Shown here one piece after another: positions 18,947 to 64,000 of a DNA stretch of 64,000 bases. Position 1 is the first letter of the stretch. Every line of letters begins with the position of its first letter. The DNA lies in the NCBI GenBank assembly GCA_024401365.1, contig JAKSLE010000010.1, forward strand, positions 27,677-91,676, in the 5' to 3' direction. The translations under genes were made by a program, and so were the position numbers. Below the pieces are notes generated by a model. It saw only the letters and a list, made by a program, of their open reading frames with translations. It was not told where the DNA came from and made no database searches. Source of the stretch: Bacteroidales bacterium (lineage in GTDB: Bacteria; Bacteroidota; Bacteroidia; Bacteroidales; Marinilabiliaceae).

Positions 18947-19017
18947 TGTCCTATAGTATAATGGTAGTACAGAAGATTCTGGTTCTTTTAGTCAGGGTTC
19001 GAATCCTTGTGGGACAA
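18947..19017 (+). tRNA. tRNA-Gln (CTG)
   Basis: Cloverleaf: acceptor TGTCCTA with TGGGACA; anticodon stem GAAGA/TCTTT around loop TTCTGGT, giving anticodon CTG; T-arm CAGGG-TTCGAAT-CCTTG. The discriminator is A and CCA is not encoded. It is followed by a weak terminator and a second glutamine tRNA with nearly the same body. Confidence 0.9.
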
Positions 19018-19058: not shown

Positions 19059-19129
19059 TGCCCAATAGTATAATGGCAGTACAGAAGATTTTGGTTCTTT
19101 TAGTCCGCGTTCGAATCACGGTTGGGCAA
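19059..19129 (+). tRNA. tRNA-Gln (TTG)
   Basis: Acceptor TGCCCAA pairs perfectly with TTGGGCA; anticodon stem GAAGA/TCTTT around TTTTGGT gives anticodon TTG. T-arm is CCGCG/CACGG with one mismatch. CCA is not encoded. The D-arm and anticodon arm are almost identical to the preceding tRNA-Gln(CTG), so the pair looks like a tandem duplication with anticodon divergence. Confidence 0.9.
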
Positions 19130-22647: not shown

Positions 22648-22721
22648 GGTCCCATAGCTCAGTTGGTTAGAGCACCTGACTCATAATCAGGGAGTCACAG
22701 GTTCAAGCCCTGTTAGGACCA
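22648..22721 (+). tRNA. tRNA with CAT anticodon (elongator Met or Ile2)
   Basis: Acceptor GGTCCCA pairs with TAGGACC, with one C-A mismatch at the sixth pair. The D-arm is GCTCAGTTGGTTAGAGC, the anticodon stem CCTGA/TCAGG with loop CTCATAA, and the T-arm ACAGG-TTCAAGC-CCTGT. CCA is not encoded. The first pair G-C excludes initiator tRNA. Elongator Met is favoured; Ile2 (lysidine-modified) cannot be excluded by eye. Confidence 0.9.
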
Positions 22722-54566: not shown

Positions 54567-57107
54567 GTGAATAAGCGAGTTGTTATTATATCTTCTGTAG
54601 CTGCGGCGATAGCGGTTGTGCTATTGCTGTTGGTTTTGTGGCTAAATGACACAAAGCTATATGAAGGTAACACTCCATTCACGGCACTTACGACGGACAC
54701 ACGCTTGGTAGTCAGATACAACCAGGCTCCTTTATATGTAAAGAGTCAGGTAAATGACGAGACTGCGGAGAGGTTGGCAGACCTAGCGTACAACTATTCT
54801 GATAGGCTTCATTTGCACGCTGACACATCGCTGTACAAGGTTTTCACCAGATCGATGGAATTATTAGCCGATACGTTTACTACTCGTACGGTATATTCTG
54901 TCTATTATGATGATGCGTTATTACTGTCGTTCCCATTAAAGAACAAGAAAGAGTCGAGGACGTTGCTTTCGGAATTAGAATGTTCTGTACCTGTTGACAC
55001 TACGATAAGTGGGGTAAAGATTTCGAGGGTAAAAGATTCGCAATGTTGGAGTTTGGTAGAGAATGGCTGTATGTTTCTCTCGTCATCGCAAAATGTTTTA
55101 GCCAAGATAGCCGACAAGGATACCAAGAAACTGATGTCGCTCCAATCGTTCAGCACCTTGATGCATACTGCTTCGGATGCTTCTCCGCTATCTATTTTTG
55201 TGCGAGACTACGACAGAGAAGATGAAGAGTGGACTGAGTTGGACGTTGACATTCTCAATTCGCGCATAGTAGCCAATGGCATGTCGTTCTCGGAGAATGC
55301 CAGTTCCCTTTCGTATGTTGTATCAGCAGAATCGGCCCCCATTGTGATAGACAAGTATGTTCCATCCAGTGTAGTAGACTTCAAGAGTTTTGCGAAAGGC
55401 ACCAGAGGATTAGCCAATGAGCATTATACCACCTATTTGAAGAAGCACGGCAAAGAAGAGCAGTACCGAGAGATGCAATCGACTCTTAATGAGCGATGTG
55501 CGGCAGACGTTGAGGCTCTCCTTGCGGACTTGTTCAATAATGAGTTGGCCTTAGTTTCGTTGGACATAGATAAGCCAGAGAACTCCCTATGTCTGTTCCT
55601 TATGGGAGACAATGGCACGGTACTTCAAGGAGCCCTGAATGAGATGTTGGTAGCGCTGAACGGAGGTGAGGCCGTATCGCAAGTTGATGTACTCTCGCCA
55701 TTATCATCGGTAGCTGTACCAGTATACAGGGCGTTCAACAGCAGGGAAGAGTTGATGTTCCTCCCAGATTTGATAGGCACGGACAAGGTTCCATATAAAT
55801 ACTATCTGAGGTTTGAGAACTGTCTGCTGTTTGCGGACGACGTCAATATACTCAGGAGGGTTTTGTATGAGAACATGCAAAACAGGACATTAGCCAATGA
55901 TGCTTCGTTCAGAAACTTCAGGGGGTTGTTTCCAGAGAGATGCAGTGCGTTCAAGTGGAGAAAATGTATGCTGCATGACAGTGAAGTCTGCAAGACCATT
56001 GGATGGCAAGCAGCGAAAGTCAACAATCTCCCATACATCTGTCTGAACATTGACAACAACACCCATTTAAGTGCAGAGCCGCCAACCAGATGGCAAGCGC
56101 ATTTGGATGCCGACATTGTGGGCAAGCCATTTGCTGTGATCAACCATTATACGCAGTCGACAGAGTATCTAGTTCAAGATGCAGAGGACTACATATACCT
56201 GATTAATTCAGAAGGACTTACGTTGTGGAAGAGGAAGGTTGACGGCAAGATAGTAGGAGATGTGATACAGATAGACTATTACCGTAACAAGAAGTTGCAA
56301 TATCTCTTTGCTACGGAAAATTCTATCCAACTGATAGACCGCAATGGCAACAATACGGCAGATTTCCCGATCAAGTTGAATGCCAAGGCGACCAGTGGGG
56401 TATCGTACATTATGTACAATGACTCGCGTGATTTCAGGCTATTTGTATCGTGTGACAACAAGACTACATGCTTATATGGGCCAGACACCAAGCATATAGA
56501 AGGGTGGAATATACCATCGACAGAAGGTTTAGTCACCCAGCCAGTTCAGCACGAGGTAGCGTTAGGGAAGGACTACATACTCATGCAAGACAATTTGAGG
56601 AGTTATGTACTTGACAGGAAAGGCAATGAGCGCATCAAGTTGTCGCAATTCTTTGCACCAAATCCCCAGAGCAATATATACTTTGATGGAGTATCGAAGT
56701 TTGTCACATCTACTGTAGATGGGATGATGGCCTCCATCTCCATTCCTGAAGGAGAAGTCAAGACCTACAATATACCTGACATGAAAGGCAAGGTGCATCA
56801 CCTTTTGCATGCCGACAAGTCGCAATTTAACATTGTCACGGACAGTCTTATTATAAGTTTTGATTCGCAGCGAGGTACGATAGAGCGGCAGACGCAGATT
56901 TTTGTAGGAGAGGTATCAGAAGTCGCGATGACCAGTGAAGGCAATCTCATGATATACGATGCTGTTGAGCACTTGGTATATCTATACAATATGCAAGGCA
57001 AGTTGGCCGTTGGCTATCCTATTCCAGCCTATTCTCCGATGATACAAGGAGAAGGCAGTGTTGTTGTTGCGGGGCCACAAGGAGCGCTCAATTGTTTCAT
57101 GCGCTAA
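54567..57107 (+). CDS. Large membrane-anchored protein with propeller-like C-terminus, unknown
   Basis: 846 residues, GTG start. One N-terminal helix (VVIISSVAAAIAVVLLLLVLWL) anchors a large extracytoplasmic part. Residues about 35-510 resemble DUF3352-type proteins (loss-of-function substrate-free folds with repeated lipocalin-like units). From about 530 on, short repeated strands (HLVQDAEDYIYLINSEGLTLWKRKVDGKIVG, LFATENSIQLIDRNG) look like a beta-propeller similar to PQQ-type repeats. No catalytic motif is recognised. The close link to pssA suggests an envelope or lipid-related role, which is only contextual. Confidence 0.7.
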   Translation: MNKRVVIISSVAAAIAVVLLLLVLWLNDTKLYEGNTPFTALTTDTRLVVRYNQAPLYVKSQVNDETAERLADLAYNYSDRLHLHADTSLYKVFTRSMELLADTFTTRTVYSVYYDDALLLSFPLKNKKESRTLLSELECSVPVDTTISGVKISRVKDSQCWSLVENGCMFLSSSQNVLAKIADKDTKKLMSLQSFSTLMHTASDASPLSIFVRDYDREDEEWTELDVDILNSRIVANGMSFSENASSLSYVVSAESAPIVIDKYVPSSVVDFKSFAKGTRGLANEHYTTYLKKHGKEEQYREMQSTLNERCAADVEALLADLFNNELALVSLDIDKPENSLCLFLMGDNGTVLQGALNEMLVALNGGEAVSQVDVLSPLSSVAVPVYRAFNSREELMFLPDLIGTDKVPYKYYLRFENCLLFADDVNILRRVLYENMQNRTLANDASFRNFRGLFPERCSAFKWRKCMLHDSEVCKTIGWQAAKVNNLPYICLNIDNNTHLSAEPPTRWQAHLDADIVGKPFAVINHYTQSTEYLVQDAEDYIYLINSEGLTLWKRKVDGKIVGDVIQIDYYRNKKLQYLFATENSIQLIDRNGNNTADFPIKLNAKATSGVSYIMYNDSRDFRLFVSCDNKTTCLYGPDTKHIEGWNIPSTEGLVTQPVQHEVALGKDYILMQDNLRSYVLDRKGNERIKLSQFFAPNPQSNIYFDGVSKFVTSTVDGMMASISIPEGEVKTYNIPDMKGKVHHLLHADKSQFNIVTDSLIISFDSQRGTIERQTQIFVGEVSEVAMTSEGNLMIYDAVEHLVYLYNMQGKLAVGYPIPAYSPMIQGEGSVVVAGPQGALNCFMR

Positions 57108-57665: not shown

Positions 57666-58214
57666 ATGCGCTTTCAAGCACCTACGTTCACATATAAAAT
57701 AACTGAACCAGGCTTAGCGGAAGCCTCGTTTACTATGGGAGATTCGTTTGCTGATTTCTCCCTTCCGAACGTGTGTAATCCATTAGGGGATTTGTTGGGG
57801 GGATTAGTAAATATGATTATAAATCCTATTCACCTATGGGGGAAGCAGAATTCGCAGCGTATAGTTTGGTATGGAAATGACGAGCAGTTCAACTGGGATT
57901 TGTTGATGTTGGAAGAGGGGATGATATCTGTGAAGGTATCGCAAGTCAATGATTTCTTTGGTGATGAGGCGATAGAGCTTTTGAGCTTTGAGTGTAATTT
58001 GGATGAATTTCTTCTACCCATTATCCAAACATTGGATTCGTTGATAAAGCAGATGGGCTTATTGAATTATCATCAGCAATGGCAGAAAGACGAGTTTCCG
58101 TTTACGTACTTTTTGTTTTTGAAGAAGCATTTGATAGACAATGGTCGTTGGACCCGCAGGAATGCGCAGAGAAAAGAGATTCTCAATAACGAGATGTTAA
58201 TCCTATTGGGATAG
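57666..58214 (+). CDS. Uncharacterised soluble protein
   Basis: 182 residues, no signal peptide or membrane helix of full length. Tryptophan-, phenylalanine- and leucine-rich (NMIINPIHLWGKQNS, RIVWYGNDEQFNWDLLMLEEG, YHQQWQKDEFPFTYFLFLKKHL). The pattern of an N-terminal beta-rich half and helical C-terminal half is reminiscent of small immunity-type or house-cleaning proteins, but no family is recognised. It stands alone, flanked by the repeat region and the ilv leader. Confidence 0.6.
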   Translation: MRFQAPTFTYKITEPGLAEASFTMGDSFADFSLPNVCNPLGDLLGGLVNMIINPIHLWGKQNSQRIVWYGNDEQFNWDLLMLEEGMISVKVSQVNDFFGDEAIELLSFECNLDEFLLPIIQTLDSLIKQMGLLNYHQQWQKDEFPFTYFLFLKKHLIDNGRWTRRNAQRKEILNNEMLILLG

Positions 58215-58326: not shown

Positions 58327-58334
58327 TATATTTG
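58327..58334 (+). promoter_or_regulatory. -7 box of the ilv operon
   Basis: TATATTTG, with predicted start near 58341, about 16 bases before the leader ORF. The -33 region is not a clear TTTG. Confidence 0.55.
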
Positions 58335-58356
58335 CACCGAAATTCAGCAATAAGAA

Positions 58357-58428
58357 ATGTACAACGTACGCAACATACGAGTGGTTGTCCTACTTTTGAA
58401 CCTTATTGTCCTAGTCGTTCAAGGATAA
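58357..58428 (+). CDS. ilv operon leader peptide
   Basis: A 23-codon ORF (ATG 58357, TAA 58426-58428). Fourteen of the 23 residues are branched-chain: seven Val, five Leu and two Ile, including the runs VVVLLL and LIVLVV. The ORF precedes an antiterminator segment and a terminator hairpin before ilvD. This is the arrangement of classical ilv/leu attenuators, in which ribosome stalling at Val, Leu or Ile codons prevents termination. It is too short for ordinary gene calling. Confidence 0.88.
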   Translation: MYNVRNIRVVVLLLNLIVLVVQG

Positions 58429-58431
58429 TGA

Positions 58432-58504
58432 GTGAGATGGTTGTTGCAGTATATTAAGCATACACATACATGGCCTTCTCACTAGGAAAGTGAGAGGGCT
58501 TTTT
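58432..58504 (+). promoter_or_regulatory. ilv attenuator: antiterminator and terminator
   Basis: Terminator: GCCTTCTCAC (58473-58482) pairs over all ten positions (one G-T) with GTGAGAGGGC (58490-58499), then five T. Antiterminator: GTGAGATGG (58432-58440), right after the leader stop codon, pairs with CCTTCTCAC (58474-58482) with one mismatch, sequestering the terminator's left arm. The two structures are mutually exclusive. Confidence 0.85.
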
Positions 58505-58535
58505 AATTGATAAAAATAAACGAACTGACATAGAT

Positions 58536-60368
58536 ATGAAGCACGAACTTAGAAGCGCTACTACCACGCAGGGTAGACGTATGGCGGGTGCCAGAGCTCT
58601 TTGGGCTGCTAATGGAATGAAGCCTGAGCAGGTTGGCAAACCTATTATTGCGATTGTGAATTCATTTACGCAATTTGTACCAGGACACACACATTTGCAT
58701 GAAATCGGTCAGGTCGTCAAGAGTGAGATAGAGAAGAGAGGCTGTTTTGCTGCAGAATTCAATACTATTGCCATTGACGATGGTATAGCGATGGGGCATG
58801 ATGGTATGTTGTATTCATTGCCATCGCGAGACATTATTGCGGACTCGGTAGAGTACATGGTAAATGCGCACAAGGCGGATGCCATGGTATGTATTTCGAA
58901 CTGTGACAAGATTACTCCAGGTATGCTTATAGCATCGATGCGATTGAACATTCCTACGGTATTTGTATCGGGAGGTCCAATGGAAGCTGGAGACTTGAAC
59001 GGCACAAAGCTTGACTTGATAGATGCCATGATTAAGTCGGCAGACACGACACTCTCTGATGAAGAAGTTGCGAAGATTGAGGCTAAGGCGTGTCCAACCT
59101 GTGGTTCATGCTCGGGTATGTTTACAGCCAACTCAATGAACTCATTGACAGAAGCCATTGGACTTTCGTTGCCAGGCAACGGTTCGATAGTTGCGACACA
59201 CGAGAACAGACACAGGCTCTTCTGTGATGCTGCAAAGCTCATAGTAGAGAACACATATAAGTACTACAGAGACGGTGATGAGAGTGTATTGCCAAAGAGC
59301 ATTGCTGTGAAGGAGGCGTTTATGAACGCTATGACACTTGACATCGCGATGGGTGGTTCGACGAATACTATTCTTCACCTTTTGGCTGTAGCGTACGAGG
59401 CAGGTGTAGACTTCAAGATGGCGGATATTGATGCATTGAGCAGAAGAATTCCATGTCTCTGTAAGGTAGCTCCAAATACGCAGAAGTATCATATTCAGGA
59501 TGTGAACCGTGCTGGTGGTATTTTGGGTATTATGAACGAGTTGGCAAAGGGCAAGTTGGTCAACACATCGCTCAAGCGAGTTGACGGTATGACCCTTAAA
59601 GAGGCAGTTGAGAAGTATGACATCACGGTAGAGCGTCCTACGCCAGCTGCAAAGAAGCTTTACACTTCGGCTCCGGCAAATAAGTTCTGCATCAGACTTG
59701 GTGCGCAGAATACATATTACGAGTCGCTTGACACAGACCGTGCGAATGGATGTATCAGAGATATTGAGCATGCTTATACGAAAGACGGCGGTTTGGCTGT
59801 ATTGTTTGGCAACATAGCTATTGACGGTTGTGTAGTTAAGACAGCAGGTGTAGACGAGTCGATCTGGCACTTTGAGGGTCCAGCCAAGGTATTTGATTCG
59901 CAAGAGTTGGCATGTGAGGGTATCCTTGGCGGCAAGATCAAGAGTGGAGATGTAGTAGTTATTACGCATGAGGGTCCAAAGGGAGGTCCAGGTATGCAAG
60001 AGATGCTATACCCAACAAGCTACATTAAGTCGATGCACCTTGGTAAGGAGTGTGCGTTGATTACTGATGGACGTTTCTCGGGAGGTACATCGGGACTATC
60101 GATCGGACACATTTCTCCAGAAGCTGCTGCGGGCGGAAATATTGGTTTGATTAAGGACGGAGACATCATAGAGATTGATATTCCATCTAGAAAGATTTGT
60201 GTACACCTTTCGGACGAAGAGCTTGCTGCTCGTAGAGAAGAAGAGATGAAGAGAGGCAAGAAAGCCTTTACAGCTCCTACACGAGTAAGAAATGTACCAA
60301 AGAGCTTGATGGCATACGCATCGATGGTAAGTTCAGCAGACAAGGGTGCTGCGCGTATTATAGAGTAA
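58536..60368 (+). CDS. ilvD: Dihydroxy-acid dehydratase
   Basis: 610 residues. Fe-S enzyme that dehydrates 2,3-dihydroxy-isovalerate and -methylvalerate to the 2-oxo acids of valine and isoleucine. Cluster cysteines are in SNCDKITPG and [17 protein letters not shown]; the C-terminal [20 protein letters not shown] is diagnostic. First gene of ilvD-ilvB-ilvN-ilvC, directly after the attenuator. Bacteroidales often use this order. Confidence 0.97.
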
Positions 60369-60397: not shown

Positions 60398-62101
60398 ATG
60401 ACAGGTTCAGAAGCGATAATAGAATCATTACTTGCGGAAGGGGCGGACACCATCTTTGGTTATCCAGGTGGTCAGATTATGCCAGTCTTCGACAAGATGT
60501 ATGATTATCAAGATAAGTTGCGTCATATCCTTGTAAGGCATGAGCAGGGAGCTATTCATGCGGCGCAAGGATTTGCGAGGGCATGTGGTAAGACCGGTGT
60601 TGTAGTTGTAACATCAGGTCCAGGTGCTACCAATGTGATTACGGGTATTGCTGATGCGATGGTAGACTCCACTCCATTGGTAGTGATCACAGGTCAGGTT
60701 TCGAACTCATTGCTTGGCAAGGATGCGTTTCAGGAGACGGATGTGCTAGGTATTACTCTTCCTATTACTAAGTGGAGTTACCAGATACAGCGACCAGAAG
60801 ATATAGCTTGGGCAGTAGCGAGAGCATTTTACATTGCCAAGAGCGGACGTCCTGGTCCAGTAGTCCTTGACGTTACAAAAGATGCGCAAGTAGGCAAGCT
60901 TGATCAGTTCAAGTACGAGCCATGCAACTTTATCAGAAGTTACATTCCTGTACCAACGATACAGAAGAGCAAGTTGCAAGAAGCTGCCAAGATGCTTTCG
61001 GAGGCGAAGAAGCCGTTGATAGTATATGGTCAAGGCATTATTCTCTCGCATGCAGAAGAAGAGTTGAAGGCGCTCTGTAACAAAGCCGGCATTCCTGCTG
61101 CATCTACGTTGCTTGGTCTTTCGGCGTTGCCAACAGGCTTCAAGCACTACAAAGGTATGCTTGGTATGCATGGTAATATTGGTCCTAACATGAAGACCAA
61201 CGAAGCGGACGTCATCTTGGCAGTCGGCATGCGTTTTGACGACCGAGTTACTGGTGCTGTAAATACATACGCTAAGCAAGCGAAGATAATCCACATAGAT
61301 ATTGATGTTGCTGAGATAGGCAAGATTATTCCTGTGGACCTTGGCATACATGCAGATGCGAAAGAGGCGCTCAACCTATTGTCTATTCTCACACCAGAAG
61401 CAGAACATGATGCTTGGGAGGCAGAATTTGACAAGTGTTATGAGACAGAGTATAGCAAAGTAATTGCTCCTGAGATTGCTCCAGGCAAGGGAGATGTCAA
61501 TATGGGAGAGGTTGTAAATATGGTTGCAGAGGTATCGAAGCAATCGGCTATTGTGGTTACTGATGTAGGTCAGAACCAGATGATGGGTGCGAGATATTCG
61601 CAATTCAACCAGACACGCAGTTTGATTACATCAGGAGGTCTTGGTACAATGGGCTTTGGTTTACCAGCAGCCATAGGTGCGAAGATAGCGGAGCCAAGCA
61701 GGCCAGTATGTTACTTTGGAGGTGATGGAGGAGTACAGATGACCATACAGGAATTTGGAACCATCATGCAAGAGAAGATAGGAGTTAAGGTAATTATACT
61801 TAACAACAACTGGCTTGGCAATGTACGTCAGTGGCAGGAGCTCTTCTTTGATGCTAGGTATTCGCAGACTCGAATGGTGAATCCAGACTATATGAAGATA
61901 GCGGAAGCCTATGGTTTTGCGCACAGAAGGGTTACTTCTCGAGAAGAGTTGCGCTCAGCGGTAGAAGAGATGCTTTCGAATGACGAGCCATATATCCTTG
62001 AGGCATGCATAGTAGAAGAAGGCATGGTATTCCCAATGATTCCTCCAGGAAAGGGAGTTACAGACATTATGTTGAACGCTAAAGAATGGTATCAGAAATA
62101 A
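60398..62101 (+). CDS. ilvB: Acetolactate synthase, large subunit
   Basis: 567 residues. Thiamine-diphosphate/FAD enzyme joining pyruvate with pyruvate or 2-oxobutyrate. The catalytic Glu is in FGYPGGQIMPVFD...RHEQGAIHAAQGFARA; the TPP motif is GGDGGVQMTIQEFGTIMQEKIGVKVIILNNNWLG. It starts 29 bases after ilvD and ends one base before the small-subunit gene. Confidence 0.96.
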   Translation: MTGSEAIIESLLAEGADTIFGYPGGQIMPVFDKMYDYQDKLRHILVRHEQGAIHAAQGFARACGKTGVVVVTSGPGATNVITGIADAMVDSTPLVVITGQVSNSLLGKDAFQETDVLGITLPITKWSYQIQRPEDIAWAVARAFYIAKSGRPGPVVLDVTKDAQVGKLDQFKYEPCNFIRSYIPVPTIQKSKLQEAAKMLSEAKKPLIVYGQGIILSHAEEELKALCNKAGIPAASTLLGLSALPTGFKHYKGMLGMHGNIGPNMKTNEADVILAVGMRFDDRVTGAVNTYAKQAKIIHIDIDVAEIGKIIPVDLGIHADAKEALNLLSILTPEAEHDAWEAEFDKCYETEYSKVIAPEIAPGKGDVNMGEVVNMVAEVSKQSAIVVTDVGQNQMMGARYSQFNQTRSLITSGGLGTMGFGLPAAIGAKIAEPSRPVCYFGGDGGVQMTIQEFGTIMQEKIGVKVIILNNNWLGNVRQWQELFFDARYSQTRMVNPDYMKIAEAYGFAHRRVTSREELRSAVEEMLSNDEPYILEACIVEEGMVFPMIPPGKGVTDIMLNAKEWYQK

Positions 62102-62102
62102 G

Positions 62103-62666
62103 ATGGAAGAGAATAACAATACGATGTTCACCATTACGGTATATGGTGAGAATCAAGTAGGTTTGCTTAACCAGATATCTATCATCTTTACTCGCCGAAA
62201 CCTCAACATTTGGAGTTTGACGGTCTCTGCTACTGTTATAGAAGGCGTACACAAGTTTACCATTGCATGTCGCACGACTCGTCAGCAGATAGACAATGTT
62301 GTAAAGCAGATAGAGAAGAGGATAGATGTCATCAAGGCGTTCTATTACACAGACGACGAAATCATCTACCAAGAGTTGGCGTTGTACAAGGTATCAACGG
62401 ATGCGATACTTGACGATCCAAATTTTGAGCAACTTCTTCACCAGCATAATGCTCAGATTCTTGAGATAAACCGTACCTTTGTAGCGATTCAGAAGACAGG
62501 TCACTGTAGAGAGACTACGGAATTGTATGAAGCACTAGCAAAGTATGGTGTATTACAATTTGTGAGATCTGGTCGAGTAGCTATTACGAGAAGTCCGCTT
62601 GAGCCTGTGAACAGTTATCTAGAGGCGAGAGAAGAGTTCCGTAAAGAATTGATGACGAATAAATAA
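62103..62666 (+). CDS. ilvN: Acetolactate synthase, small regulatory subunit
   Basis: 187 residues. An N-terminal ACT domain (FTITVYGENQVGLLNQISIIFTRRNLNIWSLTVS) binds the feedback inhibitor valine; the C-terminal half activates the large subunit. It follows ilvB with a single-base gap. Length fits the longer IlvH/IlvN type. Confidence 0.94.
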   Translation: MEENNNTMFTITVYGENQVGLLNQISIIFTRRNLNIWSLTVSATVIEGVHKFTIACRTTRQQIDNVVKQIEKRIDVIKAFYYTDDEIIYQELALYKVSTDAILDDPNFEQLLHQHNAQILEINRTFVAIQKTGHCRETTELYEALAKYGVLQFVRSGRVAITRSPLEPVNSYLEAREEFRKELMTNK

Positions 62667-62696: not shown

Positions 62697-63740
62697 ATGG
62701 CAAAGATGAATTTTGGTGGTGTTATCGAAGAGGTGGTAACACGCGACGAGTTCCCATTGAACAAGGCCCTTGACACGCTCAAGGATGAGACTATTGCAGT
62801 AATTGGTTATGGTGTACAGGGCCCTGGTCAGTCACTTAACCTTCGTGACAATGGCTTCAACGTAATCGTTGGTCAGCGTCCAGGTAAGACATACGACAAG
62901 GCAGTAGCAGATGGTTGGGTACCAGGCAAGACACTCTTCGGTATTGAGGAGGCAGCAGAGAAGGCTACAATCATCATGTGTCTTCTTTCAGATGCAGCTG
63001 TAATGTCAGTATGGCCAACATTGAAGAACTACCTTAAGCCAGGTAAGGCTCTTTATTTCTCACACGGTTTCGCTATTACTTGGAACGATCGTACAGGTTG
63101 TGTACCTCCAACAGACGTTGACGTTATCATGGTAGCTCCTAAGGGTTCAGGTACATCACTCCGCAGAATGTTCCTTGAGGGTCGTGGTTTGAACTCATCA
63201 TTTGCTGTTTACCAAGATGCTACAGGCAAGGCAATGCAGCGTACACTTGCACTTGGTATTGGTATTGGTTCTGGTTACATGTTTGAGACAACATTCCAGC
63301 GTGAGGCTACATCAGACTTGACAGGTGAGCGTGGTTCATTGATGGGTGCTATCCAAGGTCTTCTCCTTGCACAGTACGAGGTACTCCGTGAGAACGGTCA
63401 CACACCATCAGAGGCATTCAACGAGACAGTAGAGGAGCTCACACAGTCGCTCATGCCACTCTTCGCAGAAAAGGGTATGGACTGGATGTATGCAAACTGC
63501 TCTACAACAGCACAGCGTGGTGCACTTGACTGGATGACTCCATTCCACGATGCAATCAAGCCAGTTGTACAAAAGCTCTACAACTCGGTTAAGACAGGTA
63601 ACGAGGCACAGATTTCGATCGACGCTAACTCTAAGCCTGACTACCGTGTAGGTCTCGAGAAGGAACTTGCAGCTCTTCGTGAGAGCGAGATGTGGCAGAC
63701 AGCTGTTACAGTACGTAAGCTCCGTCCAGAGAACAACTAA
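62697..63740 (+). CDS. ilvC: Ketol-acid reductoisomerase
   Basis: 347 residues, class I-like length. The dinucleotide site is IAVIGYGVQGPGQSLNLRDNG (about 33-53), followed by VGQRPGK contacting the NADPH phosphate. Catalytic acidic residues are found in the helical domain around FQREATSDLTGERGSLMGAIQGLL. It isomerises and reduces acetolactate or acetohydroxybutyrate. Its codon use is that of a highly expressed gene, unlike the other ilv genes. A strong terminator follows. Confidence 0.96.
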   Translation: MAKMNFGGVIEEVVTRDEFPLNKALDTLKDETIAVIGYGVQGPGQSLNLRDNGFNVIVGQRPGKTYDKAVADGWVPGKTLFGIEEAAEKATIIMCLLSDAAVMSVWPTLKNYLKPGKALYFSHGFAITWNDRTGCVPPTDVDVIMVAPKGSGTSLRRMFLEGRGLNSSFAVYQDATGKAMQRTLALGIGIGSGYMFETTFQREATSDLTGERGSLMGAIQGLLLAQYEVLRENGHTPSEAFNETVEELTQSLMPLFAEKGMDWMYANCSTTAQRGALDWMTPFHDAIKPVVQKLYNSVKTGNEAQISIDANSKPDYRVGLEKELAALRESEMWQTAVTVRKLRPENN

Positions 63741-63780: not shown

Positions 63781-63814
63781 CAGTCGCCAGTAATGGTGCT
63801 GGCGACTGTTTTTT
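63781..63814 (+). terminator. Terminator hairpin between ilvC and leuA
   Basis: CAGTCGCCAG (63781-63790) pairs perfectly with CTGGCGACTG (63799-63808), followed by six T. Only 16 bases separate it from the leuA start, with no room for a promoter. Confidence 0.9.
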
Positions 63815-63830
63815 ATTAATACAGCAAATT

Positions 63831-64000
63831 ATGGATAATAAGGTCTACATATTTGATACTACATTACGAGACGGCGAACAAGTTCCGGGATGCCAGTTAA
63901 ACACAGTCGAAAAGATTCAAGTTGCTAAGCAGCTAGAAGCCCTAGGTGTAGATATCATTGAGGCCGGTTTCCCTATTTCAAGTCCCGGCGACTTCAACTC
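63831..64000 (+). CDS. leuA: 2-isopropylmalate synthase, N-terminal part (partial)
   Basis: 57 residues up to the window edge, beginning [20 protein letters not shown]. The TTLRDGEQ motif provides the divalent-metal Asp and catalytic Arg of the isopropylmalate synthase/homocitrate synthase family. The position after ilvC supports LeuA, the first leucine-specific step. Truncated by the window end. Confidence 0.85.

Follow-up and report, generated by a model that had tools for sequence, protein, structure and literature searches.

The window analyzed here, a stretch of 64,000 nucleotides from a Bacteroidales genome of 3.05 Mb in 76 contigs, carries a series of branched-chain amino acid biosynthesis genes on its plus strand. 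The first gene past the putative switch described below is ilvD (dihydroxy-acid dehydratase, 58536..60368; TIGR00110 and NF009103 of NCBIfam), followed by ilvB (acetolactate synthase large subunit, 60398..62101; TIGR00118), ilvN (acetolactate synthase small subunit, 62103..62666; TIGR00119) and ilvC (ketol-acid reductoisomerase, 62697..63740; TIGR00465), all on the same strand. The window ends within a further plus-strand gene, leuA, of which the 5′ end is present (63831..64000). Its best matches are models for 2-isopropylmalate synthase, which score under their whole-protein cut-offs because just 56 residues fall in the window. This leuA perhaps belongs to one operon with ilvDBNC, and relatives carry a leuA gene in the corresponding position. 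The gap between ilvC and leuA holds a strong intrinsic-terminator-like hairpin (63781-63814, 12 pairs in the fold, -20.9 kcal/mol), which leaves a leader ORF no space. Judged by eye, leuA is preceded by hairpins of this sort in L182-L185, L188 and L189 as well. Expression of leuA may be lower or under separate control. Elsewhere in the window, two ORFs upstream of the leader (54567-57107, 846 codons, and 57666-58214, 182 codons) had no NCBIfam match, and there are three tRNA genes (18947-19017, 19059-19129 and 22648-22721).

Ahead of ilvD is a plus-strand ORF of 23 codons (58357..58428), which we consider a leader peptide based on its composition, on shuffles and on the ratio of nonsynonymous to synonymous change (pN/pS). 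Its translation, MYNVRNIRVVVLLLNLIVLVVQG, has 14 Ile, Leu or Val residues (7 V, 5 L and 2 I), and both this count and the coordinates agree with a preliminary description made from the sequence alone. The amino acids of these control codons are the products of the downstream operon, as judged by the NCBIfam assignments of ilvD, ilvB, ilvN and ilvC. When the upstream region of the window locus (L001) was shuffled, an equally Ile/Leu/Val-rich ORF arose in 1 of 200 shuffles, a single-locus test that is weak in many relatives, since only 41 of 109 loci had a leader equalled by two or fewer of their 200 shuffles. The leader stop, TAA (58426-58428), is followed at once by TGA (58429-58431), so that three bases separate the stop from GTGAGATGG (58432-58440), which the preliminary description had placed directly after it.

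Four strands of the predicted RNA can take part in competing helices, and we number them 1 to 4. Arm 2 (58431..58442, plus strand), the antiterminator arm, is defined by duplex energy and by covariation with arm 3, and would lie partly beneath a ribosome at the leader stop given the footprint that we assumed. Arm 3 (58472..58483, plus strand), defined by duplex energy and by covariation in both helices, includes CCTTCTCAC (58474-58482) and is common to the antiterminator (2:3) and the terminator (3:4). Arm 4 and the T-run of the intrinsic terminator (58489..58504, plus strand) are supported by a terminator call and 3:4 covariation. The predicted terminator stem joins GGCCTTCTCACT (58472-58483) to AGTGAGAGGGCT (58489-58500) with Ts continuing to 58504; a terminator with a T-run ahead of ilvD had been proposed earlier and is confirmed here, with 12 pairs, two of them G-U, in place of the ten originally counted. 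The proposed pairing of GTGAGATGG with the left terminator arm also held up, as bases 58431-58437 and 58439-58442 form a helix with arm 3 that has one mismatch and a duplex energy of -15.5. The antiterminator excludes the terminator, and its upstream arm is past the control codons. Across 87 loci with the element, the start of arm 2 has a median position of +2 when counted from the first stop-codon base, and varies from -23 to +7. In the minimum free energy fold of untranslated RNA, strand 1 (58402..58412, plus strand), formed by the leader codons CTTATTGTCCT, pairs with 58422-58432, and an outer strand in the early leader codons (58366..58375, plus strand) pairs with 58442-58452. Strand 1 is further supported by locus-specific complementarity between leader and arm 2.

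The preliminary description held that the leader ORF should be conserved in related Bacteroidales. We collected 67 ilvD loci from the same family (30 plus 37 more) and 80 from named public genomes, which gave 145 distinct loci once L031 and L032 were dropped as duplicates of L006 and L007. L031 is a same-genus genome from horse faeces, identical to L006 in place and sequence. Matches to the ilvD family that were fragments or distant paralogues (G033, G053, pieces of 31-56%) were left out. Our fixed pipeline passed a locus if it had an ORF 12-40 codons long whose Ile/Leu/Val codons numbered 7 or more and made up no less than 35%, a terminator following this ORF, and complementarity of the left terminator arm to the stop-codon region at -9 kcal/mol or lower. 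Leader, terminator and 2:3 pairing occurred together in 90 of 145 ilvD upstream regions vs 4 of 1450 dinucleotide shuffles, confirming that the leader is conserved. The passing loci comprise 60 of 67 in the family and 30 of 78 elsewhere; three of those 30 appeared spurious by eye, and the 90 may hold about three false ones. Looser criteria had let through 92 of 145, several of them on spurious pairings. Of the 16 loci from the genus, 13 pass and the element in L005 is recognizable, while in L014 and L015 no leader or terminator could be recognized by eye before ilvD. Those two loci have a promoter-like box, TAACTTTG, about 85 bases before ilvD. Named genomes with passing loci include Bacteroides caecigallinarum, B. 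graminisolvens and Phocaeicola faecalis, as well as a Tannerella, a Paludibacter and a Prolixibacteraceae genome. The remaining 55 of 145 loci fail, among them 14 of 19 records labeled Prevotella or Prevotellaceae; counted as misses are L005, L018, L028, L042, L113 and L114, where the element is present by eye and falls below thresholds, and L100, where the hairpins are at a contig end. One genome (G059) has two ilvD copies on separate contigs (L016 and L147), each with a passing attenuator and with different leaders. For the promoter, codon-permutation and ribosome-position tests we used 87 loci, which are the 93 with any leader and terminator minus L005, L052, L069, L094, L105 and L114.

A putative -7 promoter box, TATATTTG (58327..58334, plus strand), matches TAnnTTTG, which is given as the -7 consensus for the primary sigma factor of the Bacteroidota phylum (PMC7366714), and predicts an RNA start at about 58340. 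The cross-locus promoter scan covered this box type and found it no more than 90 bases before the leader in 81 of 87 loci vs 8 of 243 control windows; a sigma-70 promoter scan of this region of the window found none. From the end of the box to the leader start codon there are 22 bases in the window locus and a median of 28 in the 81 loci, and because of this spacing the leader start is probably near the 5′ end of the RNA. The preliminary description had made initiation depend on such a position, which the spacing renders probable, with the RNA start itself predicted from the box. A Shine-Dalgarno-like 4-mer precedes the leader start in 2 of 87 loci, and A makes up 52% of the 20 bases ahead of the start codon (87 loci), which fits the statement that the Shine-Dalgarno interaction is little used in this phylum.

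The leader frame is under purifying selection. Summed over pairs of the window species and its three closest relatives, the leaders differ by 20 synonymous and 3 nonsynonymous changes (pN/pS 0.06), whereas shifting the frame by one base gives a ratio of 0.91 and shifting it by two leaves zero synonymous changes. Four other groups gave a leader pN/pS of 0.26 to 0.51, and in one of these, where no more than 12 changes were available, the +2 frame scores equally low (0.26 vs 0.32). Codon choice in the leaders also differs from that of the ilvD gene that follows, as compared in the 52 of 87 leader loci with ilvD in hand. GTC and GTG make up 81% of Val codons in the leader vs 45% in its own ilvD (leader higher in 50 of 52 loci), ATT makes up 74% vs 41% of Ile codons (44 of 52), and CTC and CTA together 46% vs 22% of Leu codons (36 of 52); CTA alone, in pooled counts, reaches 21% vs 3%. 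It has been argued that sensitive attenuation requires particular synonymous codons, with CUA best suited for the E. coli leu operon (PMC1183508). Some of the leader codon bias could also reflect pairing requirements with arm 2.

We assessed both hairpins in an alignment (A1) that began with the 90 passing loci, from which L052 and L069 were removed by eye (88), then sequences about 80% or more alike (60), and finally L094 by eye (59). In these 59 sequences, 92.1% of the cells of the 3:4 terminator helix are paired, 11 of its 13 pairs have changed on both sides, and its covariation was reached in 0 of 500 shuffles. For the 2:3 antiterminator helix, 84.6% of cells are paired with two-sided changes at 8 of 13 pairs, again with 0 of 500 shuffles, figures slightly in favor of 2:3 since the loci were partly selected on 2:3 energy, a cut-off that 90 of 93 passed. 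Compensatory changes are thus found in both hairpins, as had been anticipated; the shuffles and the permutations below leave relatedness among loci in place. When the 2:3 partner was slid by 1-3 columns, pairing fell to 40-55%, and one inner column, 20:92, lacks 2:3 pairing in most sequences (36 of 59). A further match to arm 2 comes from arm 3 bases that form part of the terminator loop: columns 12:100 are Watson-Crick in 26 of 44 cases with a shuffled mean of 13.4 (0 of 2000 shuffles), the next position beyond is weaker (16 of 2000), and the one after shows nothing (463 of 2000). The 3:4 helix cannot account for the match at 12:100.

The leaders are of low complexity and permutation of single ones lent the 1:2 helix little support, so we adopted a cross-locus test for it, which asks whether a leader pairs more favorably with the arm 2 of its own locus, extended by six bases, than with the arms of other loci. 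These tests used 58 and 26 loci, with L049 also out. In 26 diverse loci, the own partner of 1:2 was better by 3.1 kcal/mol with row and column means removed (6.4 sd, 0 of 5000 permutations), and 2:3 in the same test reached 7.3 sd (0 of 5000). Three controls (leader with arm 3, leader with the start of ilvD, and arm 2 with the start of ilvD) gave no locus-specific pairing in the 26 loci. The signal is weaker without the 3′ extension of arm 2 (12 of 5000 permutations as good, 26 loci), and the first 14 nt of arm 2 alone are weakly locus-specific (49 of 5000, 58 loci). Permuting codons within leaders gave as good a 1:2 helix in 10 or fewer of 200 permutations in 14 of 87 loci.

To relate these helices to translation, we folded the RNA with a ribosome at different positions, as equilibrium computations with an assumed footprint, in which pairing is leniently taken as the highest value over the arm 2 bases. 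With RNA made to arm 3 and a ribosome at some Ile, Leu or Val codon, 2:3 pairing is at least 0.9 in 87 of 87 loci. With the ribosome at the stop, it is at most 0.1 in 79 of 87 loci and 0.00 in the window locus; in the other 8 it is still possible, at 0.84 or more in six. Addition of arm 4 makes the terminator part of the best fold in all five states tried, and since it is the most stable structure at that point, read-through must be kinetic.

Together this suggests, with a probability of roughly 0.92, that the element ahead of ilvDBNC is a conventional ribosome-mediated transcription attenuator, like those of E. coli ilv, his and trp. Transcription would start about 16 bases before the leader ORF, at a start site predicted from the promoter box. 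With ample charged Val, Leu and Ile tRNAs, the ribosome would reach the leader stop and cover part of arm 2, arms 3 and 4 would form the terminator, and RNA polymerase would halt about 30 bases before ilvD. If one of these tRNAs is uncharged, the ribosome would stall on the run of Val, Leu and Ile codons, leaving arm 2 free to pair with the emerging arm 3, and transcription would continue into ilvDBNC. In untranslated RNA, strand 1 could pair with arm 2. The branched-chain genes would thus very probably be switched on only upon a shortage of those amino acids. Comparison between loci shows the coding nature of the leader, the competing helices and the position of the promoter box; the start site, stalling, termination, read-through and their timing we infer. 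The preliminary description saw all parts of an E. coli-like ilv attenuator here, and leader, terminator and antiterminator bear this out. The protector 1:2 appears supported by comparison between loci, and it is not dominant when untranslated RNA is folded.

The least secure part of the attenuator reading would be the behavior without a ribosome translating the leader, where folding tends to favor the antiterminator. This leads to a sub-case, compatible with attenuation, in which there is no working protector and termination occurs only when a ribosome finishes the leader, so that stalling anywhere, or no translation, would lead to expression. In untranslated RNA made to arm 3, 2:3 pairing has a median of 0.83 (87 loci; 0.92 in the window locus), with values of at least 0.9 in 39 of 87 loci and at most 0.1 in 20. 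The little excess of 1:2 pairing under codon permutation and the location of arm 2 at the leader stop also speak for this sub-case. However, the pairing of leader and arm 2 is locus-specific by the cross-locus test, and the two untranslated folds of the window locus are near equal, with 1:2 at -29.3 (RNA to 58471) and 2:3 at -29.6 (RNA to 58484). We regard a switch that is on by default as possible and rather unlikely.

Two readings without attenuation fare much worse. The unit has its own promoter box and its own terminator, as would a stand-alone gene for a small protein or small RNA that is no switch for ilvD, but a TAnnTTTG box is found between the terminator and ilvD in 0 of 87 loci, and such a gene would leave unexplained both the 2:3 covariation and the match between leader residues and the downstream pathway, making it very improbable. 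Slightly more remote still is direct sensing of an amino acid or protein with an incidental ORF, since riboswitches, T-boxes and RNA-binding-protein attenuators all have the terminator/antiterminator architecture, yet none of the 4227 Rfam families, Trp_leader among them, was found at cut-off in this region of the window or in nine related loci, and the ORF has a frame under selection and codons unlike those of ilvD.

We searched for the architecture elsewhere with a covariance model (R1) built from the ilvD element. In the window's own genome R1 gave E below 0.01 at the window site only, a search with little power alone; a DNA pattern search for terminators of the same shape found one further site there. 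Under stricter filters R1 matched in 10 of 148 genomes of the phylum, and 3 of the 9 phylum matches outside the own genome (E of 0.001 or less) have a fitting leader on one side and a biosynthesis gene on the other. The other six look like chance matches or ordinary terminators and have no fitting leader-gene setting. In the genus, R1 picked out this architecture ahead of leuA in four genomes (L165, L166, L167 and L169; leuA identified by NCBIfam for L165), where the leaders are rich in Leu, as in MTKSLNILGLALLGLLLLVQP (9 L, 1 I, 1 V); by eye, 4 of 14 genus genomes with a leuA match have a Leu-rich leader directly before it. His-rich leaders such as MNALHHHHHHHTDD precede hisG in 8 of 12 loci in relatives (L194, L195, L198, L199, L201, L202, L204 and L205). 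The hisG locus L196, excluded from this count, has an ORF with three scattered His. In the genome of the window species no Leu-rich leader was seen before leuA, which follows ilvC, and no His-rich leader before hisG. A family from another class yielded, with R1, MINTYNALVSKNWLWWWHNSIMEKSV and a second aromatic leader upstream of trpE as well as an Ile-rich one upstream of ilvE. The trpE and ilvE leaders of this other class that the ilvD model found are L229, L232 and L228. Leader residues track the pathway: Leu with leuA (4 genomes), His with hisG (8 of 12 loci), and Trp or aromatic residues with trpE (2). Upstream of 10 long aspartokinase genes (L206-L215), we saw nothing that was clearly a Thr leader followed by a terminator. 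Two of these have upstream ORFs, MIRTTEHTAILTTTPWGVQ in L208 (6 Thr in 19 codons) and MITNMRYSTSSKGTTPCGL in L211 (4 Thr), and although from different families they share a similar ACGACC...CCCTTG...GGGTT stretch; these are possible Thr leaders with no evident terminator.

We speculate that these leaders share a Bacteroidota-wide scaffold, with a GTGAGA-type arm 2 on the leader stop, an CCTTTCTCAC-type arm 3 and no Shine-Dalgarno sequence, in which leader codons are swapped between pathways (Ile/Leu/Val, Leu, Trp and perhaps His), control codons are taken from less used synonyms, and close coupling of transcription and translation is required. This idea is doubtful, and we lowered our estimate of it because R1 matches are so few across the phylum and only a third of those outside the own genome look real. 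If true, a shared scaffold would mean that transcription and translation must be tightly coupled in Bacteroidota.

In E. coli, the ilvGMEDA, ilvBN and leu attenuators consist of a leader peptide with control codons, competing helices and an intrinsic terminator before the first gene. The window element resembles them in each of these respects and in serving the branched-chain pathway. It differs in a leader start without a Shine-Dalgarno sequence, in a gene order of ilvDBNC then leuA, and in a less certain protector helix; the likeness seen is one of architecture. The three E. coli attenuators are among those listed in PMC1183508. In Rfam the best resemblance is to Trp_leader (RF00513), at chance level (16 bits vs a cut-off of 41 bits, E of 1). 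Closer in phylogeny are the clues to leader-peptide attenuation in Flavobacterium psychrophilum (PMC9723704), from the same phylum and also upstream of amino acid biosynthesis operons, although the window host belongs to the Bacteroidales and is no flavobacterium, and the main text of that paper gives these clues one sentence. In Streptomyces coelicolor, ilvB and leuA of the same pathway are preceded by leader peptides and alternative structures that resemble the window element in layout, and there mutation of the control codons was reported to have no effect (ilvB) or an effect inconsistent with classical attenuation (leuA) (PMC1262725), a warning against the attenuation reading. PMC4833913 counts leader genes close to structural genes across many phyla, Bacteroidetes included, and treats them as reinitiation aids. 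Published work has called short ORFs of thetaiotaomicron 'reminiscent of leader peptides'. We found little open-licence literature on leader-peptide attenuation in Bacteroidetes or Bacteroides, in keeping with the earlier remark that such leaders are rarely annotated there. Vitreschak et al. 2004 and Lopatovskaya et al. 2010 may include attenuators from beyond the proteobacteria.

Ribosome-mediated attenuation is a known mechanism; what appears new is a well-supported, widespread example in Bacteroidales. It would provide an easily tested case of attenuation in this order, including named Bacteroides and Phocaeicola genomes, with leaders that lack a Shine-Dalgarno sequence. Since attenuation needs a ribosome close to RNA polymerase, the element could be used to probe the coupling of the two in this phylum. 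It is also a candidate new RNA family for annotation and a candidate natural amino acid sensor.
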